DNA of 53,409 bases from a virus: positions 1 to 53,409 of the IMG/VR virus record IMGVR_UViG_3300020477_000034. One strand, given 5' to 3'. Under the pieces are notes generated by a model that was not told the origin of the DNA, did no database searches, and saw nothing but the letters and a program-made list of their open reading frames with translations. Of this stretch, positions 6,574 to 18,839 are shown in pieces (positions within the stretch are counted from its first letter, which is position 1; each line of letters opens with the position of its first letter). The position numbers were made by a program, and so were the translations under genes.

Positions 6574-7050
6574 ATGTTTGGTTATATGAAAATGGCAATG
6601 GTTGTAATAATGATTAGTGGACTTGCAGGTGCAGGTCTCTATGTTATGAAATTGCAGAAGGACAATGCAATTTTAAAAGCTAATCAAGTTAAGTTAGAAG
6701 CTGCCGTTGAAGGTCAAAAGAAAGTTATAGCCCAACAAAAAGAAGACTTTGGTAAAATCCTTGAAGCAAATAATAAGATGAATACTCTTATGAATAAACT
6801 TCAAAAGGATTTACAAGATTTAGACAAGAGATTTACTAAAGGTGGAAGAGACTTTGGTAAACTTGCATTAGAAAAAACGAAAGTCATACAGAAAATAATC
6901 AATAGAGGTAGCGATAATGTTATGCGTTGTGTTGAAATTGCTGGTGGCGCTGCCTTAACAGAAGCAGAAATTAAAGCTACAAAGAAATCTGAAATTAATA
7001 GAGAATGTCCAAGTATAGCGAACCCAAATTATGTACCGTATAGTAATTAG
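6574..7050 (+). CDS. Inner-membrane spanin (Rz-like) candidate
   Basis: 158 residues. One N-terminal membrane anchor (about 5-25) is followed by a long periplasmic coiled coil (about 28-110) with no other domain, the architecture of Rz-type i-spanins. The 3' end overlaps by 20 nt a lipoprotein gene in another frame, the classic Rz/Rz1 arrangement. i-spanins join the inner to the outer membrane through their lipoprotein partner in the last step of Gram-negative lysis. Two Cys near the C terminus may form a disulfide. Assignment is by architecture, not sequence identity. Confidence 0.55.
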   Translation: MFGYMKMAMVVIMISGLAGAGLYVMKLQKDNAILKANQVKLEAAVEGQKKVIAQQKEDFGKILEANNKMNTLMNKLQKDLQDLDKRFTKGGRDFGKLALEKTKVIQKIINRGSDNVMRCVEIAGGAALTEAEIKATKKSEINRECPSIANPNYVPYSN

Positions 7051-7396
7051 TATTTTATTCATAGTCCTTTTAACTGGATGCTCAAGTATTAAAAAACTTG
7101 ACATATTCACAACAGAAGTTGAAAGACAAAAATTAGAATTACAAAAACCAACCTTACCACAATTAGAAAAACTTAAATGGATTATCATTACTTCTGATAA
7201 TGCTGCTGAAGTATTCCAGAAGTTAGAAGATGAAGGTATTGATCCTGTGTTATTTGGTTTAACAGATAAAGATTTTCAATTAATCGCTAAAAACTTTGCT
7301 CAAATTAGAAATCATATGAAAGCAACCAACGATTTGATTGACGCATATAAAGAATATTATGAACCAGAGGAGAAAAAACCAAAGAACAAAGAGTAA
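7031..7396 (+). CDS. Outer-membrane lipoprotein, o-spanin-like
   Basis: 121 residues with a lipoprotein signal peptide (MYRIVISILFIVLLTGC; lipobox LTGC, Cys at about 17). The mature part is helical and charged, ending in a Lys/Glu tail. It overlaps the Rz-like gene by 20 nt in a different frame, as o-spanin genes do. It is longer than most Rz1 proteins (40-60 residues mature), so it may have an extra role. Could alternatively be an unrelated lipoprotein. Confidence 0.5.
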   Translation: MYRIVISILFIVLLTGCSSIKKLDIFTTEVERQKLELQKPTLPQLEKLKWIIITSDNAAEVFQKLEDEGIDPVLFGLTDKDFQLIAKNFAQIRNHMKATNDLIDAYKEYYEPEEKKPKNKE

Positions 7397-7399
7397 TTT

Positions 7400-7564
7400 A
7401 TGGACGCAGATTTAGTATTAATGATAAGTAGATTGTGGCCAATGTTTGTGGCATTTATCATTTTAATAGTAACCTTAGCACAATCACATTATAGAATAAA
7501 AGTGTTAGAAGAAAAAGTTAAAGTAGCTTTTGAACTTATAAACAAATTGACAGATAAAAAGTAA
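7400..7564 (+). CDS. Small membrane protein with coiled-coil tail (54 aa)
   Basis: ATG at 7400 is three bases after the lipoprotein stop. Residues about 12-28 (LWPMFVAFIILIVTLAQ) form a membrane span; residues about 32-52 form a charged coiled coil. This is a candidate holin accessory or inner-membrane lysis regulator by position only. Confidence 0.45.
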   Translation: MDADLVLMISRLWPMFVAFIILIVTLAQSHYRIKVLEEKVKVAFELINKLTDKK

Positions 7565-7581: not shown

Positions 7582-7743
7582 ATGAATACACATTTATTAT
7601 TAATAAATTTAATTATATTATGGGCAGTTATATACTGGTCTTTCAGACTAGGAAATTTCATAGCAATATATACAAAAATATCAATCACAACATTTATAAT
7701 TTTCGTAGCATTGATTAAATTTGTGTTGATTAGCTATGATTAA
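7582..7743 (+). CDS. Two-span small membrane protein, holin candidate (53 aa)
   Basis: Residues about 5-20 and 28-50 are hydrophobic spans separated by a short charged turn, a class II holin-like layout. It ends head-to-head with the cyclase gene (stop at 7743, opposite stop at 7744). A perfect 8-bp inverted repeat ATCTGTTT/AAACAGAT (7565-7582) runs into its start codon and could affect translation initiation. No true holin motif exists, so this is tentative. Confidence 0.45.
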   Translation: MNTHLLLINLIILWAVIYWSFRLGNFIAIYTKISITTFIIFVALIKFVLISYD

Positions 7744-9369
7744 TTACTTAATAGAATAACAATTAATCTTTTCTTCTTTACCTTTTACTTTAACTTTACC
7801 AAGTTTATAGAACGGCAAATCTCCAGCGATACTATTTTCTGATATTACAATAGTTGTATTGAATTCTTTACTTTGACCTTCTAATCTACTTGCAAGATTA
7901 ACAGCGTCACCGATAACAGAATAGTCAAACCTTTGTTCACTACCCATATTACCTACAAGACAATCGCCTGTATTGATACCTATACCAATATTTAAAGGTG
8001 GGTTAAACTCTCCACTCTTATTCATTTCTCTAACGGTTCTTCTCATTTGATACGCAGATAATATTGCTAGTCTTTTATGTTCTGGATTATCAAGTGGTGC
8101 ATTCCAAAATGCCATTATACAATCACCCATATACTTATCAATAGTGCCACCATTTTTAAGTATTATACTTGTCATTGCAGTAAGAAACTTATTAACATAC
8201 TTAGCAACCTTTTCTGGTTCGCCTTTCATTGATTCAGTTATAGGAGTAAAACCTCTTATATCAGAAAACAAAAATGTCATTTCTTTTCTCTCTCCACCTA
8301 GTTTTAATAGTGATGGATTTTGTTGTAATTTTTTAACCATTTGAGGTGCTAGATAATGTTCAAATTGTTTTTTAATTTGTAGTTTCAATCTATTTTCTCT
8401 AGCAAAATTATTGTATATTAAATGACCTGAAACTAAAGTACCTATTACTAATGGACTTAACCAATCAGTTAGATATAAATTTTGTGTCCATAGATATATA
8501 CTTCCTAGTGCGATAGGTATAGAGTAACCAGCATACATTAATGCAGAAGATAATACACCTAATTTAGGAATAAAAAACAATAGTATTACACAACCTATTA
8601 TTATATAAAAAAATTCTAAACTAGATAACCAATGTGGTCTACTAATATATTTACCAGACAATAAAGTTTCTGTACTAACTGCCATAATTTCGTGTGTGTT
8701 TTTTAAACCATTTGGAGTTAATGCAAAAGTAGAACCTTTAAATGTAGTACCTATGAAAACTATTTTACCTTTCATAGATGACCAATCTTTATCTGTAAAA
8801 TCTACTCTAGGAATATGATGTCTAAAATCTAACCAAATATTATCTACTTCAGGTGTAGGAAATTTTATTACTTTTAATACGACTTCAGGTATTGATTTAT
8901 CCAGAGGTAGTTTTCTTATAGTACCATCTATATCAACAGGTACAGATACATTACCTATTGCTAATGCTCTTCTGGATATACTGATAAGATTTTTAACTTC
9001 ATTTGTTTCAGTTAGTATGACAGGATATTTTTGTATCATCTTCAAAAACATTTCATCACCACCTAGTCTATCTTTATGAGGAAAGACTACTTGTAATACT
9101 ACTAGAGCGGCACCATTTTTATACGCATTAATTATAGTGCGACCAAGTGTATCTCTTTTCCAAGGCCATTGTCCGTTCTTTTTAAGTGCTTTGTCTGAAA
9201 TATCCAATAGGACTAAAGATTTGGAATCTAAATGAGTCCCAAATTTCTGGTAAGTATCAAAGGTTGCTAGTCTAGTTGATTGTAATAGTACTGGATTTAC
9301 CAAGTAAATTCCAAGAAGTATAACAAAAGTGAGACAAGCAAACCATCTTGTAGTAAATATTTGATTCAT
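7744..9369 (-). CDS. CHASE2-domain class III adenylate/guanylate cyclase
   Basis: 541 residues from the chosen start. Order: one membrane helix (about 10-28); periplasmic CHASE2 sensor domain (about 30-245; TFDTYQK, VVLQVVFPHKD, VFIGTTFKG motifs); three membrane helices (about 252-320); cytoplasmic class III cyclase domain (about 360-520). Catalytic residues are present: metal Asp in FSDIRGFT (D370), Lys and second Asp in IDKYMGD (K412, D416), and the Asn/Arg pair in GDAVNLASRLEG (N491, R495). The base-selecting Lys with Ser (YSVIGD) favours ATP. An upstream in-frame ATG at 9433-9435 overlaps csgF, so I chose 9369, which has GAGAA upstream. A phage-borne sensor cyclase making cAMP is very unusual; it is divergent from the curli-like operon. 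Confidence 0.9.
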   Translation of the reverse strand: MNQIFTTRWFACLTFVILLGIYLVNPVLLQSTRLATFDTYQKFGTHLDSKSLVLLDISDKALKKNGQWPWKRDTLGRTIINAYKNGAALVVLQVVFPHKDRLGGDEMFLKMIQKYPVILTETNEVKNLISISRRALAIGNVSVPVDIDGTIRKLPLDKSIPEVVLKVIKFPTPEVDNIWLDFRHHIPRVDFTDKDWSSMKGKIVFIGTTFKGSTFALTPNGLKNTHEIMAVSTETLLSGKYISRPHWLSSLEFFYIIIGCVILLFFIPKLGVLSSALMYAGYSIPIALGSIYLWTQNLYLTDWLSPLVIGTLVSGHLIYNNFARENRLKLQIKKQFEHYLAPQMVKKLQQNPSLLKLGGERKEMTFLFSDIRGFTPITESMKGEPEKVAKYVNKFLTAMTSIILKNGGTIDKYMGDCIMAFWNAPLDNPEHKRLAILSAYQMRRTVREMNKSGEFNPPLNIGIGINTGDCLVGNMGSEQRFDYSVIGDAVNLASRLEGQSKEFNTTIVISENSIAGDLPFYKLGKVKVKGKEEKINCYSIK

Positions 9370-9386
9370 ATCAATTCTCGTCTGAC

Positions 9387-9401
9387 TATTTATTATAAAT
9401 A
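9387..9401. promoter_or_regulatory. Back-to-back T4-type late promoter boxes
   Basis: Plus strand TATAAATA at 9394-9401 points to csgF (ATG 9425, with TTAGGAG ribosome site). Minus strand AATAAATA, complementary to 9387-9394 and one mismatch from consensus, points to the cyclase. The two boxes abut within a 55-bp intergenic region. No TTGACA-type promoter is present there, suggesting late, coordinated expression. Confidence 0.55.
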
Positions 9402-9424
9402 TTATAGCAATTATTAGGAGAATT

Positions 9425-9883
9425 ATGAGATTCATTACAAGTATTATACTTACACTTGTCTTTATCTCTAGTGCATACTCAAGCGAACTAACATTTGAAT
9501 TTGATAGTCCTTCGTTTTCAGGTAAAGGAAAGTCTTCACATTATTTAACAATAGAGAACATTGAGAAAACTAGAAAAGACGCAATCAAGGCAGCGAACAA
9601 AGCGGCAGCTGATAAAGCAACAGCAGACGCAAAGGCAACTGCTATAGCTAAATTCAAAGCAAATTTAGAGAGTAGATTCTATACTGCTCTGGCAAAACAA
9701 ATTACGGACAATGTATTCGGTACAGATGGTCTACAACAAGACTCTGGTACATTTACATCACCAGTTGGTGGAGAAGTGGTCACTTGGACTACACCATCAG
9801 GTACAGGTAATGTAGTGGTAACGGTAACAGAATCAGATGGTACGGTAACAACTTATACTTTACCTAAAGAAGATAACTCGTAG
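9425..9883 (+). CDS. csgF: CsgF-like curli assembly factor
   Basis: 152 residues with a Sec signal peptide (cleavage likely after about residue 19, ...SAYSS). The mature N terminus, LTFEFDSPSFSG, matches the CsgF region that plugs into the CsgG pore (family pattern TFxFxNPxFGG). An Ala/Lys-rich helix (about 55-95) and a C-terminal beta region (VVVTVTESDGTVTTYTLP) also fit CsgF. In curli systems CsgF couples secretion of CsgA/B to surface nucleation. It directly precedes csgG, as in many operons. A loop insertion of Ala/Lys/Asp residues distinguishes it from the enterobacterial form. Confidence 0.85.
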   Translation: MRFITSIILTLVFISSAYSSELTFEFDSPSFSGKGKSSHYLTIENIEKTRKDAIKAANKAAADKATADAKATAIAKFKANLESRFYTALAKQITDNVFGTDGLQQDSGTFTSPVGGEVVTWTTPSGTGNVVVTVTESDGTVTTYTLPKEDNS

Positions 9884-9891
9884 GAAAAAAT

Positions 9892-11004
9892 ATGTTAAGA
9901 ATTATATCTTTGTTATTGCTTACACTCTTTTTGGGTAGTTGTGCGAGTACAAAATCAGATTTTGATGTAAGAACTCAAACGGTATCATATAAAGGATTGA
10001 CAGAAATTAATTCGCCAAAAGGTGAACCAGTAGTAATTGCTGTGTATGATTTTTTAGATATGACAGGACAAAAGAAACCAGGTGGTTCTTTTGCGTCAAT
10101 GAGTACAGCGGTAACGCAAGGGTCATATCAATTATTAATTAAAGCATTACAAGACGCAGGTGATGGCAAATGGTTTAGAGTTGTTGAAAGAGCAAGTCTA
10201 CCAAGTCTATTACAAGAGAGAAAATTAATAAGGTCTACAAGACAACAAGTAAATGGTGAAGGTGCAGAACCTTTACCACCATTACTATTCGCAGGTGCAT
10301 ATATCACAGGTGGTATAGTAGGATATGATAGTGATACTAAATCTGGTGGTGTTGGTGCAAGAATATTAGGTATTCAAGCACACAAACAATACAGACAAGA
10401 TGTGGTTACTATTATATTAAGATTAGTTAATGTACAAAGTGGTGAAGTAGTAATAACTACAACCGTTGAAAAGACTATACTTTCAGGCGAAACAGGTGCA
10501 GATGTATTTAAATACCTAGATACAGATACAATGTTAGTAGAGATTGAAATGGGAGTGGCAAGAAACGAACCAGTTACCTATGCAGTAAGAAAAGCAATAG
10601 AAAAAGGTGTAGTAGATTTAATTAATGAAGGTGCTAAAAAAGGTTTATGGGAAATTGATGAAACAATAGTGCCAGAAATTAAAGATTATGTAGAAGATGG
10701 TCACGCTTTAGATAAGTATGACGGAACACCAATTACCGTAGAGATAGGTGAAGAAAAAGTTGAGAAAACATACGAAGACTATCTTAAACAAAAAGAAGAA
10801 GAAAAAGAAGCAAGAAAAAGAGATATAAAAATTAAAATGGAATGCGAGAAAAACGCTAATGCTTCTGGTAAAGTATCAGAAGAGTGTACAAAACTCGTAG
10901 ATGAAAAAGATTGGGACGAAGTAGACAAACATACAGAACAGGAGAACAAGTCAGATGAAAAAGATAGTAATGGCAATAGTGATTCTTCTAGCGACACTAA
11001 CTAA
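9892..11004 (+). CDS. csgG: CsgG-like outer-membrane curli secretion pore
   Basis: 370 residues. Lipoprotein signal (LFLGSC lipobox, Cys about 17). CsgG core signatures run in order: SYKGLTEI, VAVYDFLDMTGQKKPGG, WFRVVERASLPSLLQERK, GGIVGYDSDTKSGGVGAR, RLVNVQSGEV, EKTILSG, NEPVTYAVRKAIEKGV and GLWEID. CsgG forms a nonameric outer-membrane channel for unfolded amyloid subunits. The core (about 1-270) is followed by an extra acidic/basic tail (about 271-370) not found in the usual about 277-residue protein. The tail coding region overlaps the next gene by 50 nt, so the extension could have been selected for coupling. Confidence 0.93.
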   Translation: MLRIISLLLLTLFLGSCASTKSDFDVRTQTVSYKGLTEINSPKGEPVVIAVYDFLDMTGQKKPGGSFASMSTAVTQGSYQLLIKALQDAGDGKWFRVVERASLPSLLQERKLIRSTRQQVNGEGAEPLPPLLFAGAYITGGIVGYDSDTKSGGVGARILGIQAHKQYRQDVVTIILRLVNVQSGEVVITTTVEKTILSGETGADVFKYLDTDTMLVEIEMGVARNEPVTYAVRKAIEKGVVDLINEGAKKGLWEIDETIVPEIKDYVEDGHALDKYDGTPITVEIGEEKVEKTYEDYLKQKEEEKEARKRDIKIKMECEKNANASGKVSEECTKLVDEKDWDEVDKHTEQENKSDEKDSNGNSDSSSDTN

Positions 11005-12040
11005 TAGTTTCGCTGGCAATTCTGTTTATATTCAGCAAGACAATCAAACTAGTGCAGGATCCGTCTATATAAAACAAGATGGTTCAGGTAATAAGTTTGG
11101 TTCTTCCTCAGCAAATTTTATAATTAATGGTCCTAACTTAACACTTATCATAAAACAATTAGGCGATAATAATGTTGCTGTAGATACCAACCACGACACT
11201 TTTTATGGGTCTAATATGACCTTTGATTACATTGCAACAGGCGATTCAAATGTATTAAGACTTGATTTAGATGACACAGGCGCAGATGGACACTATTACG
11301 ATATAGATATTACAGGTAACTCAAACATAGTAGAGTTAGATTCACATACAAGTGATGATATACAAGATACTCACATAGATTTAGATATTAAAGGTGACTC
11401 AAATGATTTTTGGGCATATTTAAGAGGTGACTCACACTTCTTATATGTTCTTATGTCAGGTGATTCAAATGATGTAGAGTTTTATGGTGCAACTAACTCA
11501 ACAGGTATGGTTGGTTCAAGTAAAGCAAATGTTATGATTGGTCCAAATGTAGAATCACACGGACAATTTGCAGATACAAGTGGTGACGAAGGTGCTACAA
11601 TTGATGTTTATATAATTGGTAGCTCCAATACGGTTCATATGGCAAGTTGGGGTGCTAGTAATTATCAAGTACACGATGTCATAGGTGATTCAAATGTATT
11701 AGATGTTCATCCAGACGCTGTAGGTTCTCACATAAGGATGATTCAATACGGCGATAATAATTATATGAAAACGGTTACAAGTGGTAACTCAAATGTTTAT
11801 AGATATTATGGAAGTGGTGGAAACAATAAGGCATATGTTTATATCTATACTTCAAACGCAGTAGTAGAATTAAAACAAACAGGTGGTTCAAACGAAGCAA
11901 ACTTAACCGTAAGTGGTGATTCAATTTACGATTACACTTTACTTGTTGACCAAGATGGTTCAGATAATTGTACATACTCTTTCAATAGAAACAATCAGAC
12001 AGCAGATACAACCGTTCAGCTAAACAATAGCGGGTGTTAA
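10955..12040 (+). CDS. Curlin-like secreted repeat (amyloid) protein
   Basis: 361 residues. Signal peptide (about 1-20, ...NSFAG), then about ten to twelve imperfect repeats of 20-30 residues. Each is a hydrophobic alternating strand followed by a turn G(D/N/S)(S/N)N, for example IKQDGSGNKF, IKQLGDNNVAV, ATGDSNVLRL, IKGDSNDFWA, LMSGDSNDVEF. Curlin repeats (SxxxxxQxGxxNxA) have this plan; the first and last repeats keep Gln (YIQQDNQ, VELKQTGGSN). The middle repeats are Asp rich and lack Gln. It starts 50 nt inside csgG with AGGAG upstream. Likely the secreted amyloid cargo of the CsgG/CsgF machine. Larger than CsgA (about 150 residues). Confidence 0.8.
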   Translation: MKKIVMAIVILLATLTNSFAGNSVYIQQDNQTSAGSVYIKQDGSGNKFGSSSANFIINGPNLTLIIKQLGDNNVAVDTNHDTFYGSNMTFDYIATGDSNVLRLDLDDTGADGHYYDIDITGNSNIVELDSHTSDDIQDTHIDLDIKGDSNDFWAYLRGDSHFLYVLMSGDSNDVEFYGATNSTGMVGSSKANVMIGPNVESHGQFADTSGDEGATIDVYIIGSSNTVHMASWGASNYQVHDVIGDSNVLDVHPDAVGSHIRMIQYGDNNYMKTVTSGNSNVYRYYGSGGNNKAYVYIYTSNAVVELKQTGGSNEANLTVSGDSIYDYTLLVDQDGSDNCTYSFNRNNQTADTTVQLNNSGC

Positions 12041-14185
12041 ATGCAAAAACTATTTCTCATAGTATCTTTCCTGGTACTTTTCTGTACTAGTGCAATAGCT
12101 CAAATAACAGGTCCAAAAGTTGGCGAAGTCATAGGTTCAATGGGTACGACTTGGAACGAAAGGGACGGTTCAACTGAAAACACTTCTACTGGTTATGAAT
12201 TACAGATGAACGACTTTCTTCAAACAGGTGAAGATGGTGGTATGATAATATCATATGTTGATAAAACTAAATTTACAATGGGACCAAATACAGAATTAAT
12301 TATTGATGAGTTTGCTTTTGATACTTCTGTTGTGCCAATAGAATTAGCAATGAACATATCGGTTAATGTAGGTTCATTTACATATGAATCTGGAAGTGTA
12401 TCAGAATTAGGTGGTGAAGTTAATATTAATGCTGGTAACGCTACGATTACGGTACAAGGTACAGCGTTTTCAGGTACCGTTGATACTTCAGGTAAAGCAA
12501 CAATTACTTTGTTGCCTGATAGTGATGGTTCAGTAGGTATGTTAACCGTATCTAATGACGCAGGTTCTCAAACAATTACAAACGCATTTAATTCCGTAAC
12601 CGTTTATAATAATGATTTAGCACCTACACCTCCTAAAATAGAAACTAATAAACAAAACATTATTGAGTTAGATAAATTTGAAGAAGATATAAAAGAAGAT
12701 GTTGAGAAATCTTTTGGTGATATGGATACTAAAGTTGAAAAAGCACAAGCAATGGAAGAGGCGATAATAAATGAAGAAGTAAATGTAGTAGAGAACAATG
12801 ACACAATTGTTCAAACAGATATGTCTGTTAGTGAAGGTGACGCAATAATTGAAACACAATCAATAGAAGAAAAAGGTTTAGATACAGCAGTTGTAGAATC
12901 AGAAGTAGATACATCTTACTATGATGAATGGGAAGATGATTTAAAAGAGTGGGGTTATATAGATGAAGATAACCAGATTTCTGTATGGGATGCTGAAGGT
13001 GAAAAGACTATGGATTGGGATGACGCTAAACAAATGTATGCTGAAATGGACCAAGCATATTTTGACGCAATAGGTTGTTCAGATTGTAGTTGGGATAGTG
13101 TTAATTGGGATGATATAAATTGGGATGAAGTTGATTGGGATGCTTATGATGAGGCATATAACGAAATTTTATCTGACTATGGTCTTGCTTCTTGGAATGT
13201 AGAAGTAGTTGAGGAAGATGTAGTTGAAGAAACTAAAGAAGAAACAGAAGCAGAAGTAGTTGAAGGATATACTTGGGAAGATTTTGCTTTAGATGACGCT
13301 TACTATAGCAATTCTGAATACATTGCTAATGGAGGTCCTCCTACATTAACGGTACAAAACTATTGTGAGTACAATGGTTACGAAGACTATTGGTGTAACC
13401 AAGACTATGTTGATTACTTAAACGATTGGTATAAAGATGACTGGACTTTAAAAGTAACCAATGATAGTTGGACTAAAGAAGCTAAAAAGATATTTGGTAA
13501 ATTATATGGTTGGTGTGGAAGTTGGCCAAACTATAAGATGTGTGCTGACCAACCTAAACCTTGGAAAATGAAAGATTTAAAAAAGACTTACATAACTGAT
13601 TGGGAATGGTCAGATTGGGATACATATTGGGACGCATTATACGATTGGTGGTACACAGGTTACGATTACAATAATGAAGATGACCAATCTAGTTGGGAAG
13701 ATGAATATGCTTACGAAGATGACTATGATATAGACGCAGAACTAGAAATATTATTAGCTAGTTATAATGAAGACGAGTGTTTAAAATATGGATACTATTG
13801 GGACAATGCTAATTCTAGTTGTGGTACTGAATGGGTTGATAATACTGGTGCAGAAACACAGGTAACTGCTAGTGGTGAAACTTTAAACTATACTACTGGA
13901 GATGTAACCCAAACTTTAACTACAACGGATGGGGTTACAGGTGCGACTTCAAGTGCTACTTCCACAGGAAGAGTATCAACATTAAATAATGATTTTGACG
14001 CTACTGCTTCTACTAGTGGTGACTACACAATTATAAATAGATATAACGATAATCATAGAGCTTATGTAAAAACTGAAACGAGTAATGAGGCAGATATTCA
14101 AATTTTACAAGATAAAGAAGCACAACACCTTGATGTGGGAAATTCCTCTACCCAAAATAATATAACAATAATACAGACAGATTAG
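12041..14185 (+). CDS. FecR-domain secreted protein with Asp/Trp/Tyr-rich region and curlin-like C terminus
   Basis: 714 residues. Signal peptide (about 1-21, ...TSAIAQ). FecR domain (about 25-190: FLQTGEDGGMIISYVDKT, TKFTMGPNTELIIDEF, AGNATITVQGTAFSGTVD). Then an acidic helical linker, and a long Asp/Trp/Tyr/Glu-rich region (about 290-590) with short repeats such as NWDDINWDEVDWDAYDEA and clustered Cys. The C-terminal about 70 residues (YTIINRYNDNHRAYVKTE; NNITIIQTD) revert to curlin-like strand-turn pattern. It starts one base after the curlin-like gene. FecR domains in bacteria are often encoded beside CHASE2 proteins, which matches the neighbouring cyclase. Could be a surface nucleator or adhesin; inferred. 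Confidence 0.75.
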   Translation: MQKLFLIVSFLVLFCTSAIAQITGPKVGEVIGSMGTTWNERDGSTENTSTGYELQMNDFLQTGEDGGMIISYVDKTKFTMGPNTELIIDEFAFDTSVVPIELAMNISVNVGSFTYESGSVSELGGEVNINAGNATITVQGTAFSGTVDTSGKATITLLPDSDGSVGMLTVSNDAGSQTITNAFNSVTVYNNDLAPTPPKIETNKQNIIELDKFEEDIKEDVEKSFGDMDTKVEKAQAMEEAIINEEVNVVENNDTIVQTDMSVSEGDAIIETQSIEEKGLDTAVVESEVDTSYYDEWEDDLKEWGYIDEDNQISVWDAEGEKTMDWDDAKQMYAEMDQAYFDAIGCSDCSWDSVNWDDINWDEVDWDAYDEAYNEILSDYGLASWNVEVVEEDVVEETKEETEAEVVEGYTWEDFALDDAYYSNSEYIANGGPPTLTVQNYCEYNGYEDYWCNQDYVDYLNDWYKDDWTLKVTNDSWTKEAKKIFGKLYGWCGSWPNYKMCADQPKPWKMKDLKKTYITDWEWSDWDTYWDALYDWWYTGYDYNNEDDQSSWEDEYAYEDDYDIDAELEILLASYNEDECLKYGYYWDNANSSCGTEWVDNTGAETQVTASGETLNYTTGDVTQTLTTTDGVTGATSSATSTGRVSTLNNDFDATASTSGDYTIINRYNDNHRAYVKTETSNEADIQILQDKEAQHLDVGNSSTQNNITIIQTD

Positions 14186-14195
14186 GGATAAATAA

Positions 14196-14651
14196 ATGGC
14201 AGAAAAATCACTAACTTCTTTAGAGAGAGAAGTCGCAGACAACAGGACAAGTATTGAGGTGCTGAGAACAGAACTAGAACAAAACTCAATGGTGCATAAA
14301 AGACTAGATACAGCGATTGAGAAGTTAACAGGTATATCTTCAAGTATTAAGTCTATGCTAGCAGTACACGAAGAAAAACTATCACAAGCAGAAAAATTAG
14401 ATGAAATTATCTTTTCTAAATTAAAGGAAAGACAAGTAGAGACAGAAACAAGATATGCGTCTCTAAAAGAGAATATGGACCTTACTGAAAAGCGTATTAT
14501 GAACGAGATTAAGTCTATCAAAAATACACTTGGAGATAGGGTAAATGTACTAGAGAAATGGAAGTGGTTGATTATAGGTGGGTCAATAGTAATAGGGTTT
14601 ATATTAGCTAGGAATTTTCCTCTAGTAATTGAACTTATGAAAGTCCAATAG
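14196..14651 (+). CDS. Coiled-coil protein with C-terminal membrane anchor
   Basis: 151 residues. A long coiled coil (about 5-120) is followed by one membrane span (WLIIGGSIVIGFILA, about 124-143). ATG at 14196 lies 10 nt after the FecR gene stop, so probably in the same transcript. Conserved proteins of this layout occur in marine T4-like phages; function unknown. It could be a tail-anchored part of the envelope block. Confidence 0.5.
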   Translation: MAEKSLTSLEREVADNRTSIEVLRTELEQNSMVHKRLDTAIEKLTGISSSIKSMLAVHEEKLSQAEKLDEIIFSKLKERQVETETRYASLKENMDLTEKRIMNEIKSIKNTLGDRVNVLEKWKWLIIGGSIVIGFILARNFPLVIELMKVQ

Positions 14652-18188: not shown

Positions 18189-18839
18189 ATGAATTTTGTT
18201 GCGAACATACCACATATTCGTTGTTTTATAAAAAAAGAATATGTCCACGATTTAGAAAGAGGACACGGCGAATATATAGAAGCAGTATTAATAGCAGTTA
18301 AATCAATGAGAGGTAAGGCATTGATGTTTGAAGCATACTTACCTGAATATGGTGCTTGTTTTGATAAGTTTCCAATAAGTGCGTTAGTGTGGAGAAAGAA
18401 TATAATTAATAGTGAACAATTAAATCTTAATCAATTAGAACTTTGGGATGCTTTTAGTTATCATATTCAAATATGGGAAAAGAGTTTATTAAAGAATTGT
18501 AATGTTAAAATATGGATACCAGATAAAGGAGAAATGAAAGGTGAATATCTATTTACTATCGATTCAGTCCACTCGGATCCAAACACAATAAATACTGGAG
18601 TGTCGGAGGTACCAACCGAACACAAACAATTTAATTTTGGTAAGTTAGAAAACGGGCAATACTTTGCTCAACCAAATAATAGAATGCTTTGGTACGAACA
18701 ATCTCTTACTCCAAAAGAGTTAAAAAAACCTGACTTTAAGGTATGTGGGAGATATTACTATTGCGAACAAGAAGAACAATGGAGATATGGCGATAGTGAT
18801 GATTATTTTTATAAAGGAGAAAAGGTAAAAGATGAGTGA
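18189..18839 (+). CDS. Hypothetical protein inside the RNR operon
   Basis: 216 residues, aromatic rich, with acidic C terminus. Contains PEYGACFDKFPISALVW and HIQIWEKS. No enzyme motif recognised. Placed between nrdA and the L7/L12 gene, which overlaps its end by 8 nt, so translationally coupled. A link to nucleotide metabolism rests on position alone. Confidence 0.55.
   Translation: MNFVANIPHIRCFIKKEYVHDLERGHGEYIEAVLIAVKSMRGKALMFEAYLPEYGACFDKFPISALVWRKNIINSEQLNLNQLELWDAFSYHIQIWEKSLLKNCNVKIWIPDKGEMKGEYLFTIDSVHSDPNTINTGVSEVPTEHKQFNFGKLENGQYFAQPNNRMLWYEQSLTPKELKKPDFKVCGRYYYCEQEEQWRYGDSDDYFYKGEKVKDE

Follow-up and report, generated by a model that had tools for sequence, protein, structure and literature searches.

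What is a secretion system foreign to its host, yet under selection, doing in abundant ocean phages? This puzzle, left by three earlier papers, is taken up here for a locus in a 53,409-nucleotide stretch of viral DNA (the window; IMG/VR record IMGVR_UViG_3300020477_000034) whose source is a marine phage related to phages of SAR11 bacteria. The locus comprises a single operon of csgF, csgG, a curlin-repeat gene and a FecR-domain gene, together with a divergent gene for a CHASE2-adenylate cyclase (AC). The reading favoured here, at a probability of about one half, is that the module mediates late-expressed, curli-type secretion of a surface β-fibre and that the FecR-domain protein and the cyclase constitute an envelope sensor.

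The operon, on the plus strand, consists of csgF (9425–9883; 152 aa, signal peptide, N-terminal FEFDSPSFSG motif; Pfam CsgF, 2.5e-12), csgG (9892–11004; 370 aa; Pfam CsgG, 5.9e-50), the gene of the curlin-like cargo (10955–12040; 361 aa, signal peptide), which overlaps csgG by 50 bases, and the gene of the secreted FecR-domain protein (12041–14185; 714 aa). All four products are predicted to be exported, CsgG as a lipoprotein. Every gene was located where a preliminary description had placed it, and the phage-borne curli-type module described there was upheld by unmistakable CsgG and CsgF matches. In agreement with that description, csgE, csgD and a separate csgB were not recognised, and the Pfam-scanned neighbours contained no candidate for a CsgE secretion gate; csgC, csgD and csgE are also missing from Alphaproteobacteria (PMC3521004). 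The same neighbourhood was found elsewhere, with all five genes in the same order in dozens of IMG/VR contigs. Among 20 fully flanked modules, AC was divergent in 16, colinear in 4 and absent from none, being retained in all 20 despite the change of side and strand. The dN/dS values of 0.10–0.33 across the five genes indicate purifying selection, which, together with the recurrence in order, makes the module more than a chance assembly. The notion that it is a hitchhiker or decaying cargo without a current role draws on the absence of curli from the host clade (PMC7029224, PMC9599517); it is contradicted by these dN/dS values, by a conserved promoter box and by the presence of the module in two phage families, and is hardly credible.

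CsgG scored 169.9 bits (Pfam cut-off 20.8), and its residues 8–257 aligned to E. coli CsgG structures (E 6.8e-49). The lipobox, with Cys17 after LFLGS, is invariant in an alignment of 12 diverse phage CsgG proteins. The core extends to about residue 257 and is followed by a charged C-terminal tail of ~110 aa, which the CsgG proteins of E. coli and of Pelagibacter phage HTVC008M lack. The eyelet of the E. coli protein (Tyr51/Asn55/Phe56) is not preserved: the corresponding stretch reads PGGSFASMSTAV, with Phe56 replaced by Met. Position 56 is Leu in HTVC008M and in Methylophilales phage Melnitz, and mostly Phe or Tyr in cellular Alphaproteobacteria, which are likewise without Tyr51/Asn55; this eyelet is a trait of the E. 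coli protein and does not define the family. The pore residues, on which the preliminary description had made its identification depend, therefore give a divided result, with family match and lipobox retained but the E. coli eyelet residues lost. CsgF scored over its Pfam cut-off and carries the CsgG-binding motif F-x-F-x-x-P-x-F-x-G at its N-terminus (LTFEFDSPSFSG); F26, P29, F31 and G33 are invariant in an alignment of 10 phage CsgF proteins. The absence of CsgE had been taken to suggest an ungated pore, an argument that is weakened because cellular alphaproteobacterial systems also do without csgE (PMC3521004) and because the CsgG protein here has its own charged tail.

A T4-type late promoter box (TATAAATA) is located at 9394–9401 on the plus strand, 31 bases 5' of the csgF ATG. 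It was detected before csgF in 36 of 44 distinct upstream regions of relatives (1.03 in shuffles), mostly at -28 to -32, and a late-type box also precedes csgF in HTVC008M. The conservation is confined to this place before csgF: over the window as a whole the box is not enriched (11 seen, 11.9 expected), and none was found upstream of csgG, the curlin gene, the FecR gene, the early primase gene or the spanin genes. Before AC, the exact box occurred in 0/38 regions, with a one-mismatch version in 11. Late-type boxes had been described as lying between the two units, which, since the AC side has no exact box, holds for the csgF side only. The Melnitz record contains an annotated late-transcription coactivator, and expression of these module genes has been reported from ocean metatranscriptomes (PMC9599517).

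The module adjoins lysis genes on its 5' side, all on the plus strand: an Rz-like i-spanin (6574–7050; 158 aa, transmembrane segment at residues 7–25 and coiled coil; PHROG 739 'Rz-like spanin', E 6.8e-11), an overlapping Rz1-like o-spanin lipoprotein (7031–7396; lipobox LLTGC; PHROG 812 'Rz-like spanin', E 2.3e-10), and, as candidates, two short open frames judged by hydropathy. The first of these (7400–7564; 54 aa, one transmembrane helix) occupies a putative holin/antiholin position and matched only PHROG 5851 (function unknown); the second (7582–7743; 53 aa, two hydrophobic segments) is holin-like in appearance, had no match in a family search and has its 3' end adjoining the stop codon of AC. 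On the 3' side of the operon, a coiled-coil protein with a C-terminal transmembrane segment is encoded at 14196–14651 on the plus strand (Pfam DUF7201, 1.5e-15; weak match to the phage 'hemolysin' family PHROG 1193, E 2e-4). The adjacency to lysis genes may reflect no more than common late expression. Along the lines of a pinholin/secretin-like idea put forward for CsgG/CsgF (PMC9004378), the two proteins could form an outer-membrane pore that aids or times lysis, with cargo, FecR-domain protein and AC being secondary. Such a role, also raised in the preliminary description, would fit the late box, the spanin neighbours, the position of the module directly before spanins and endolysin in a podophage, and an eyelet devoid of the aromatic Phe56. 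We consider it unlikely, as the outer membrane is already handled by spanins, loss of the cyclase was never seen in fully flanked modules, and a pure lysis pore leaves the conservation of the cargo gene unaccounted for; its constraint ranks with the strongest in the module (dN/dS 0.10–0.17), and the turn residues of its product are invariant.

The cargo matched Curlin_rpt (PF07012) with 30.1 bits (4.5e-7; cut-off 20.7). It contains 15 G-x-x-N turns (3.7 in shuffles) at a spacing of ~11 or 22–27 aa, of which only 5 show the full QxGxxN pattern, a count that makes amyloid formation less certain, and two near-invariant cysteines (339 and 361). Its AlphaFold2 (AF2) model is β-rich (pLDDT 74, pTM 0.77), and a Foldseek comparison with the PDB returned no significant match, the likeness to β-helix tailspikes being weak and non-significant. 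A monomeric β-solenoid adhesin or receptor mask that keeps progeny from adsorbing to debris, or keeps superinfecting phages off, could account for the fairly confident monomer model, the tailspike likeness, the few QxGxxN motifs and the PA14 domain on a second curlin gene of HTVC008M. The Pfam curlin match over cut-off and the curli-specific partners CsgF and CsgG argue for a fibre instead, and superinfection exclusion would be of little use at a late stage, so that such an adhesin or mask appears rather unlikely.

The divergent gene (7744–9435, minus strand, as first delimited) encodes a class III adenylate cyclase with matches to CHASE2 (6.9e-27) and Guanylate_cyc (3.5e-21). The start at 9435 is probably too far upstream; 9369, giving 541 aa (7744–9369), is most likely, because close relatives have 541–555 aa and their start codon is separated from that of csgF by ~55 bases. 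A conserved CTAAATA/AATAAATA element is found at a very short distance from the AC start. The catalytic set is complete (metal-binding D370 and D416, ATP-type K412 and D482, transition-state N491 and R495) and is retained in 58–59 of 59 homologues; the nearest solved cyclases are 6fht and 3r5g (CyaB). Eight related phage records encode no cNMP-binding protein that could serve as a phage-borne cAMP receptor; in the one Pelagibacter MAG searched for a host receptor, two cNMP-binding matches fell in long open frames of ~1,000 residues and thus carry little information.

The FecR-domain protein consists of a signal peptide, a FecR β domain (aa 24–196), a disordered acidic linker (197–288), a Trp/Tyr/Asp/Cys-rich domain (290–545) and a C-terminal β region (605–714) ending in NNITIIQTD. 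Its FecR match (PF04773; E 0.0022, 18.8 bits) falls under the 24-bit cut-off; the assignment is upheld because the orthologues of HTVC008M and Melnitz exceed that cut-off and because Foldseek matched the AF2 model to FecR-type anti-sigma periplasmic domains (4m0n/4m0h, E 7e-5 to 4e-4; PupR 6ovk, E 1.1e-3; probability 1.00 in each case). The initial designation as a FecR/curlin-like protein is correct as to the FecR fold and a curlin-like C-terminal strand, [IV]T[IV]xQ[TIS][DN], which is short, strictly conserved and common to myophages and a podophage; this strand is not a Pfam curlin repeat.

It has been suggested that FecR acts as an iron-dependent regulator and AC as a curli inducer (PMC9599517), in which case both would regulate the module by iron or host state. 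The name and fold of the FecR domain are compatible with this proposal, as is the cAMP control of curli in Gammaproteobacteria on which it was argued. The protein nevertheless has a signal peptide and is without a cytoplasmic anti-sigma part and transmembrane helix (hydropathy finds the signal peptide segment only), neither an ECF sigma factor nor a TonB receptor adjoins it among the annotated neighbours here or in HTVC008M and Melnitz, the operon carries a phage late promoter box, and bacterial FecR domains pair with CHASE2 genes; regulation of this kind is decidedly improbable. In Alphaproteobacteria, 24 of 31 cellular CHASE2 genes had a FecR gene no more than 6 kb away (0.23 expected), counts that are not independent because the 15 genomes, picked for carrying csgG, are related and mostly rhizobial. 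A FecR and CHASE2 histidine kinase pair is also found in a Burkholderia biofilm operon (BiofilmReg; PMC5192318), in a study that called CHASE2 ligands unknown. Because the two genes adjoin in Alphaproteobacteria far from curli genes, the phage FecR-domain protein is probably a partner of the CHASE2 sensor and not an iron regulator. The signalling loop through CHASE2, initially only one of several possible roles, is strengthened by this genomic partnership outside curli loci.

Under the favoured reading of curli-type secretion coupled to an envelope sensor, in which secretion itself, the formation of a fibre and the signalling loop are all inferred, CsgG and CsgF would make an outer-membrane channel late in infection. 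Through it the β-repeat cargo would reach the exterior of the dying cell and may assemble there into a curli-like coat, persisting beyond lysis or accompanying it. The FecR-domain protein would be tied to the secreted subunits through its curlin-like C-terminal strand, the periplasmic CHASE2 domain would sense its FecR domain, and AC would convert the state of secretion or of the fibre into cAMP. A stronger version, in which the secreted FecR-domain protein with its curlin-strand end is itself the CHASE2 ligand, reporting surface secretion or fibre assembly as cAMP, and FecR proteins are CHASE2 ligands in bacteria generally, is put forward tentatively as a doubtful possibility. The comparative data point to late expression beside lysis genes and recast an 'iron regulator' as a likely CHASE2 sensor partner, making two questions testable: the purpose of pelagiphage curli and what CHASE2 domains sense.

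Its gene content identifies the locus as a type VIII (curli) secretion module of the pelagiphage kind, with a variant layout. The combination of cargo, FecR and cyclase, at first thought to be new, had been reported as CsgF-CsgG-CsgA/B-FecR-AC in pelagiphages of two families (PMC9599517, 2022), and the same gene set is present in the records of the cultured phages HTVC008M and Melnitz. In HTVC008M (gp14–gp19), csgF, csgG, curlin, FecR and AC (CHASE2-AC by Pfam) are likewise clustered, but AC is colinear and last, FecR has ~368 aa instead of 714 aa, and there is a second curlin gene, with the PA14 domain, that is missing here. Melnitz has the order csgF-csgG-curlin-FecR-curlin-AC, again with a colinear AC and a short FecR; its description discussed CsgG/CsgF and a role in lysis timing alone, and no clumping was seen in infections (PMC9004378), which tells against the favoured reading. 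Bacterial curli systems share the CsgG lipoprotein pore, the N-terminal CsgG-binding motif of CsgF and the curlin repeats, whereas the module here lacks CsgE, CsgD and CsgB and has FecR and AC added; the alphaproteobacterial order is curlin-csgF-csgG, as opposed to csgF-csgG-curlin. Neither FecR nor CHASE2 was found within 10 kb of any of 16 cellular csgG genes, and the idea that the module was taken over, complete with FecR and AC, from curli operons of Alphaproteobacteria was rejected, none of the 16 being so flanked. The sole cellular csg-FecR operon found is chromosomal, on a gammaproteobacterial MAG contig (curlin-csgF-csgG-curlin-curlin-FecR; FecR 37 bits); its CsgF and CsgG cluster with their phage counterparts, apart from Alphaproteobacteria (100/99 and 100/98), although it has an extra curlin gene upstream and lacks a CHASE2-AC within the part of the contig that was read. 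Burkholderia BiofilmReg resembles the phage pair in combining an exported FecR-domain protein and a CHASE2 membrane sensor with a link to biofilm (PMC5192318), but it uses a histidine kinase and response regulator as output, carries LysM on the FecR protein and has no curli genes. What is already known is thus the gene set; new are the layout and the support obtained for late expression and for a sensor pair, namely the late box before csgF, the AC orientation counts, the lysis-gene adjacency, the FecR–CHASE2 pairing and the cellular csg-FecR operon.

The five genes at window positions 7744-14185 most likely constitute a late, lysis-adjacent module that would combine curli-type secretion with an envelope sensor made of FecR and a CHASE2-adenylate cyclase (AC). 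Sequence comparison establishes the gene identities, the operon, the late promoter box, the gene neighbourhood and the selection; export, fibre formation, the ligand role of FecR and any gain for the phage are inferred. The open reading frames named in the preliminary description were all recovered and identified by Pfam: the minus strand encodes CHASE2 joined to a class III cyclase, whereas csgF, csgG, the curlin-repeat cargo gene and the FecR-domain gene follow in this order on the plus strand. Purifying selection acts on every gene of the module (dN/dS 0.10-0.33). The window, an IMG/VR virus record of 53,409 bases, is related to pelagimyophages; its best DNA matches, the Pelagibacter phages Mosig and HTVC008M, share ~75-76% identity with it, chiefly in the ribonucleotide reductase and primase regions. 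Between its two ribonucleotide reductase genes, window 18189-18839 strongly matches the phage 'ferredoxin' PHROG 3704 (E 5e-85).

Layouts were compared in 75 IMG/VR loci plus the window, which yielded 20 distinct modules with at least 1.9 kb on each side of csgF-FecR. The AC gene was divergent and upstream in 16 and colinear and downstream in four, and was missing from none (0/20). Some relatives (L063, L065 and L068) encode two CHASE2 cyclases, one divergent and adjoining csgF, the other more distant, past FecR or farther out (L063:12503-14428 and L063:5818-7464).

CsgG retains the lipobox Cys17 and is alignable with E. coli CsgG over residues 8-257, but the eyelet residues Tyr51, Asn55 and Phe56 are not conserved; position 56 is mostly aromatic in cellular Alphaproteobacteria, in contrast to Met or Leu in these phages. 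CsgF retains its F-x-F-x-x-P-x-F-x-G start. In the window's clade, CsgG (~305-425 aa in total, compared with 280 in HTVC008M) carries an extra charged, variable C-terminal tail that is absent from HTVC008M and E. coli; in the window it comprises codons 258-370 of the gene at 9892-11004, whose last 50 bases are shared with the 5' end of the cargo gene. Given an E. coli-like fold, the tail would be periplasmic, and it might stand in for the absent CsgE plug. A 1,499-bp 'Salmonella phage' record encoding CsgG (OR851715.1) is probably host DNA filed as phage.

The putative secreted cargo (361 aa, window 10955-12040, plus strand) contains 15 G-x-x-N turns, compared with 3.7 in shuffled sequences, most of them invariant among 33 relatives. 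AlphaFold models it as a beta-rich protein (pLDDT 74, pTM 0.77), and a structure search with this model returned parallel beta-helix proteins only at non-significant resemblance. In the same relatives, Cys339 is invariant and Cys361 nearly so, and the two may cap the repeat with a disulfide. In HTVC008M, the second curlin protein is gp18 (L002:10638-11963), which contains a PA14 domain (E 2.7e-6); a domain of this carbohydrate-binding type suggests that gp18 is an adhesive part of a fibre.

Across the whole window, the late-type promoter box TATAAATA occurs at chance frequency, without enrichment. Of 44 distinct regions upstream of csgF, 36 contain it, compared with a mean of 1.03 and a maximum of 5 in shuffled sequences; these counts are inflated by relatedness, whereas the contrast among genes within the same loci is independent of it. 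The box lies mostly at -28 to -32 from csgF, in divergent and colinear layouts alike, and 13 bases upstream of the annotated csgF start in HTVC008M. It is absent upstream of csgG, the cargo gene, FecR and the primase gene, and directly upstream of the spanins; as csgG, cargo and FecR lack a box of their own, the operon has a single promoter. Upstream of the module, the window encodes two tiny membrane proteins and an i-spanin/o-spanin pair (PHROGs 739 and 812). In L107, a podophage-like contig with terminase and portal genes that was binned as a Pelagibacter MAG, the order is csgF-csgG-curlin-FecR-AC-i-spanin-o-spanin-endonuclease-endolysin-terminase, so that the module adjoins lysis genes in two phage lineages. 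The L107 module, with spanins and endolysin directly after it, spans L107:6238-13670; the gene upstream of its csgF (128 aa, PHROG 10198) resembles a small membrane protein, not a histidine kinase.

The window FecR protein (714 aa) scores below the Pfam cut-off, and its HTVC008M and Melnitz (OM43 phage) orthologues score above it. Its AlphaFold model, built from 28 relatives and usable per domain only (mean pLDDT 63.6, pTM 0.28), resembles the periplasmic domains of the FecR-type anti-sigma proteins 4m0n and 6ovk (probability 1.00). Members of the window's clade (~706-745 aa) contain a disordered linker, followed by a domain rich in Trp, Tyr, Asp and Cys and by a C-terminal beta region, whereas those of HTVC008M, Melnitz and a podophage have ~370 aa. 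Myophage FecR proteins end in a strict, curlin half-repeat-like strand, [IV]T[IV]xQ[TIS][DN], to which the end IKITQSN in a podophage is related; this strand would tie FecR to the secreted subunits.

In 15 isolate-like, mostly Rhizobiales genomes with csgG, a FecR-domain gene lay within 6 kb of a CHASE2 gene in 24 of 31 cases (0.23 expected under uniform placement), and neither FecR nor CHASE2 was found within 10 kb of any of their 16 csgG genes. A Burkholderia biofilm operon pairs FecR with a CHASE2 protein of histidine kinase output, the ligands of CHASE2 being described as unknown (PMC5192318). In Sinorhizobium, the cAMP regulator Clr targets a FecR-domain protein, and CyaD1 deleted for CHASE2 produces cAMP constitutively (PMC5498481). 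The persistence of the pair across outputs (kinase, cyclase) and contexts (biofilm, curli, phage) suggests that CHASE2 senses FecR. In the phage AC, no catalytic residue expected of an ATP-type class III enzyme is missing; as a search of eight phage records found no cyclic-nucleotide-binding protein, the cAMP target is perhaps in the host.

A lead to the origin of the module comes from L101, a gammaproteobacterial MAG contig with the order curlin-csgF-csgG-curlin-curlin-FecR (L101:8679-13779) between flanks that read as chromosomal (pyruvate phosphate dikinase, acyl-CoA dehydrogenases). Its CsgF and CsgG fall on the phage side of the trees, separate from those of Alphaproteobacteria (100/99 and 100/98), on long branches; it is the single contig of this type found, and the phage label of the MAG contigs L079, L080, L083 and L107 is our own assignment, so that L101 serves as a pointer. 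It does show that a cellular curli operon can include FecR, which PMC9599517 states is not the case. L079, L083 and L107, filed under Flavobacteriaceae/Pelagibacter MAGs, carry the phage-type module and are probably viral.

The combination with FecR and cyclase, described as not known from the literature in the preliminary description, had already been published. Two curli-system homologues have been reported from pelagimyophages (PMC7029224), as have csgG/csgF from Melnitz, for which a role in lysis timing was proposed and infected cells did not clump (PMC9004378). CsgF, CsgG, CsgA/B, FecR and adenylate cyclase, often with a second CsgA/B, were described in both podo- and myophages, ocean-wide and expressed in metatranscriptomes, in a main text that does not use the terms CHASE2, spanin or promoter (PMC9599517). 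The whole gene set is visible in the GenBank records of HTVC008M and Melnitz, both of whose cyclases contain a CHASE2 domain (Pfam). The window carries a real, conserved module of an already published kind, in a variant layout.
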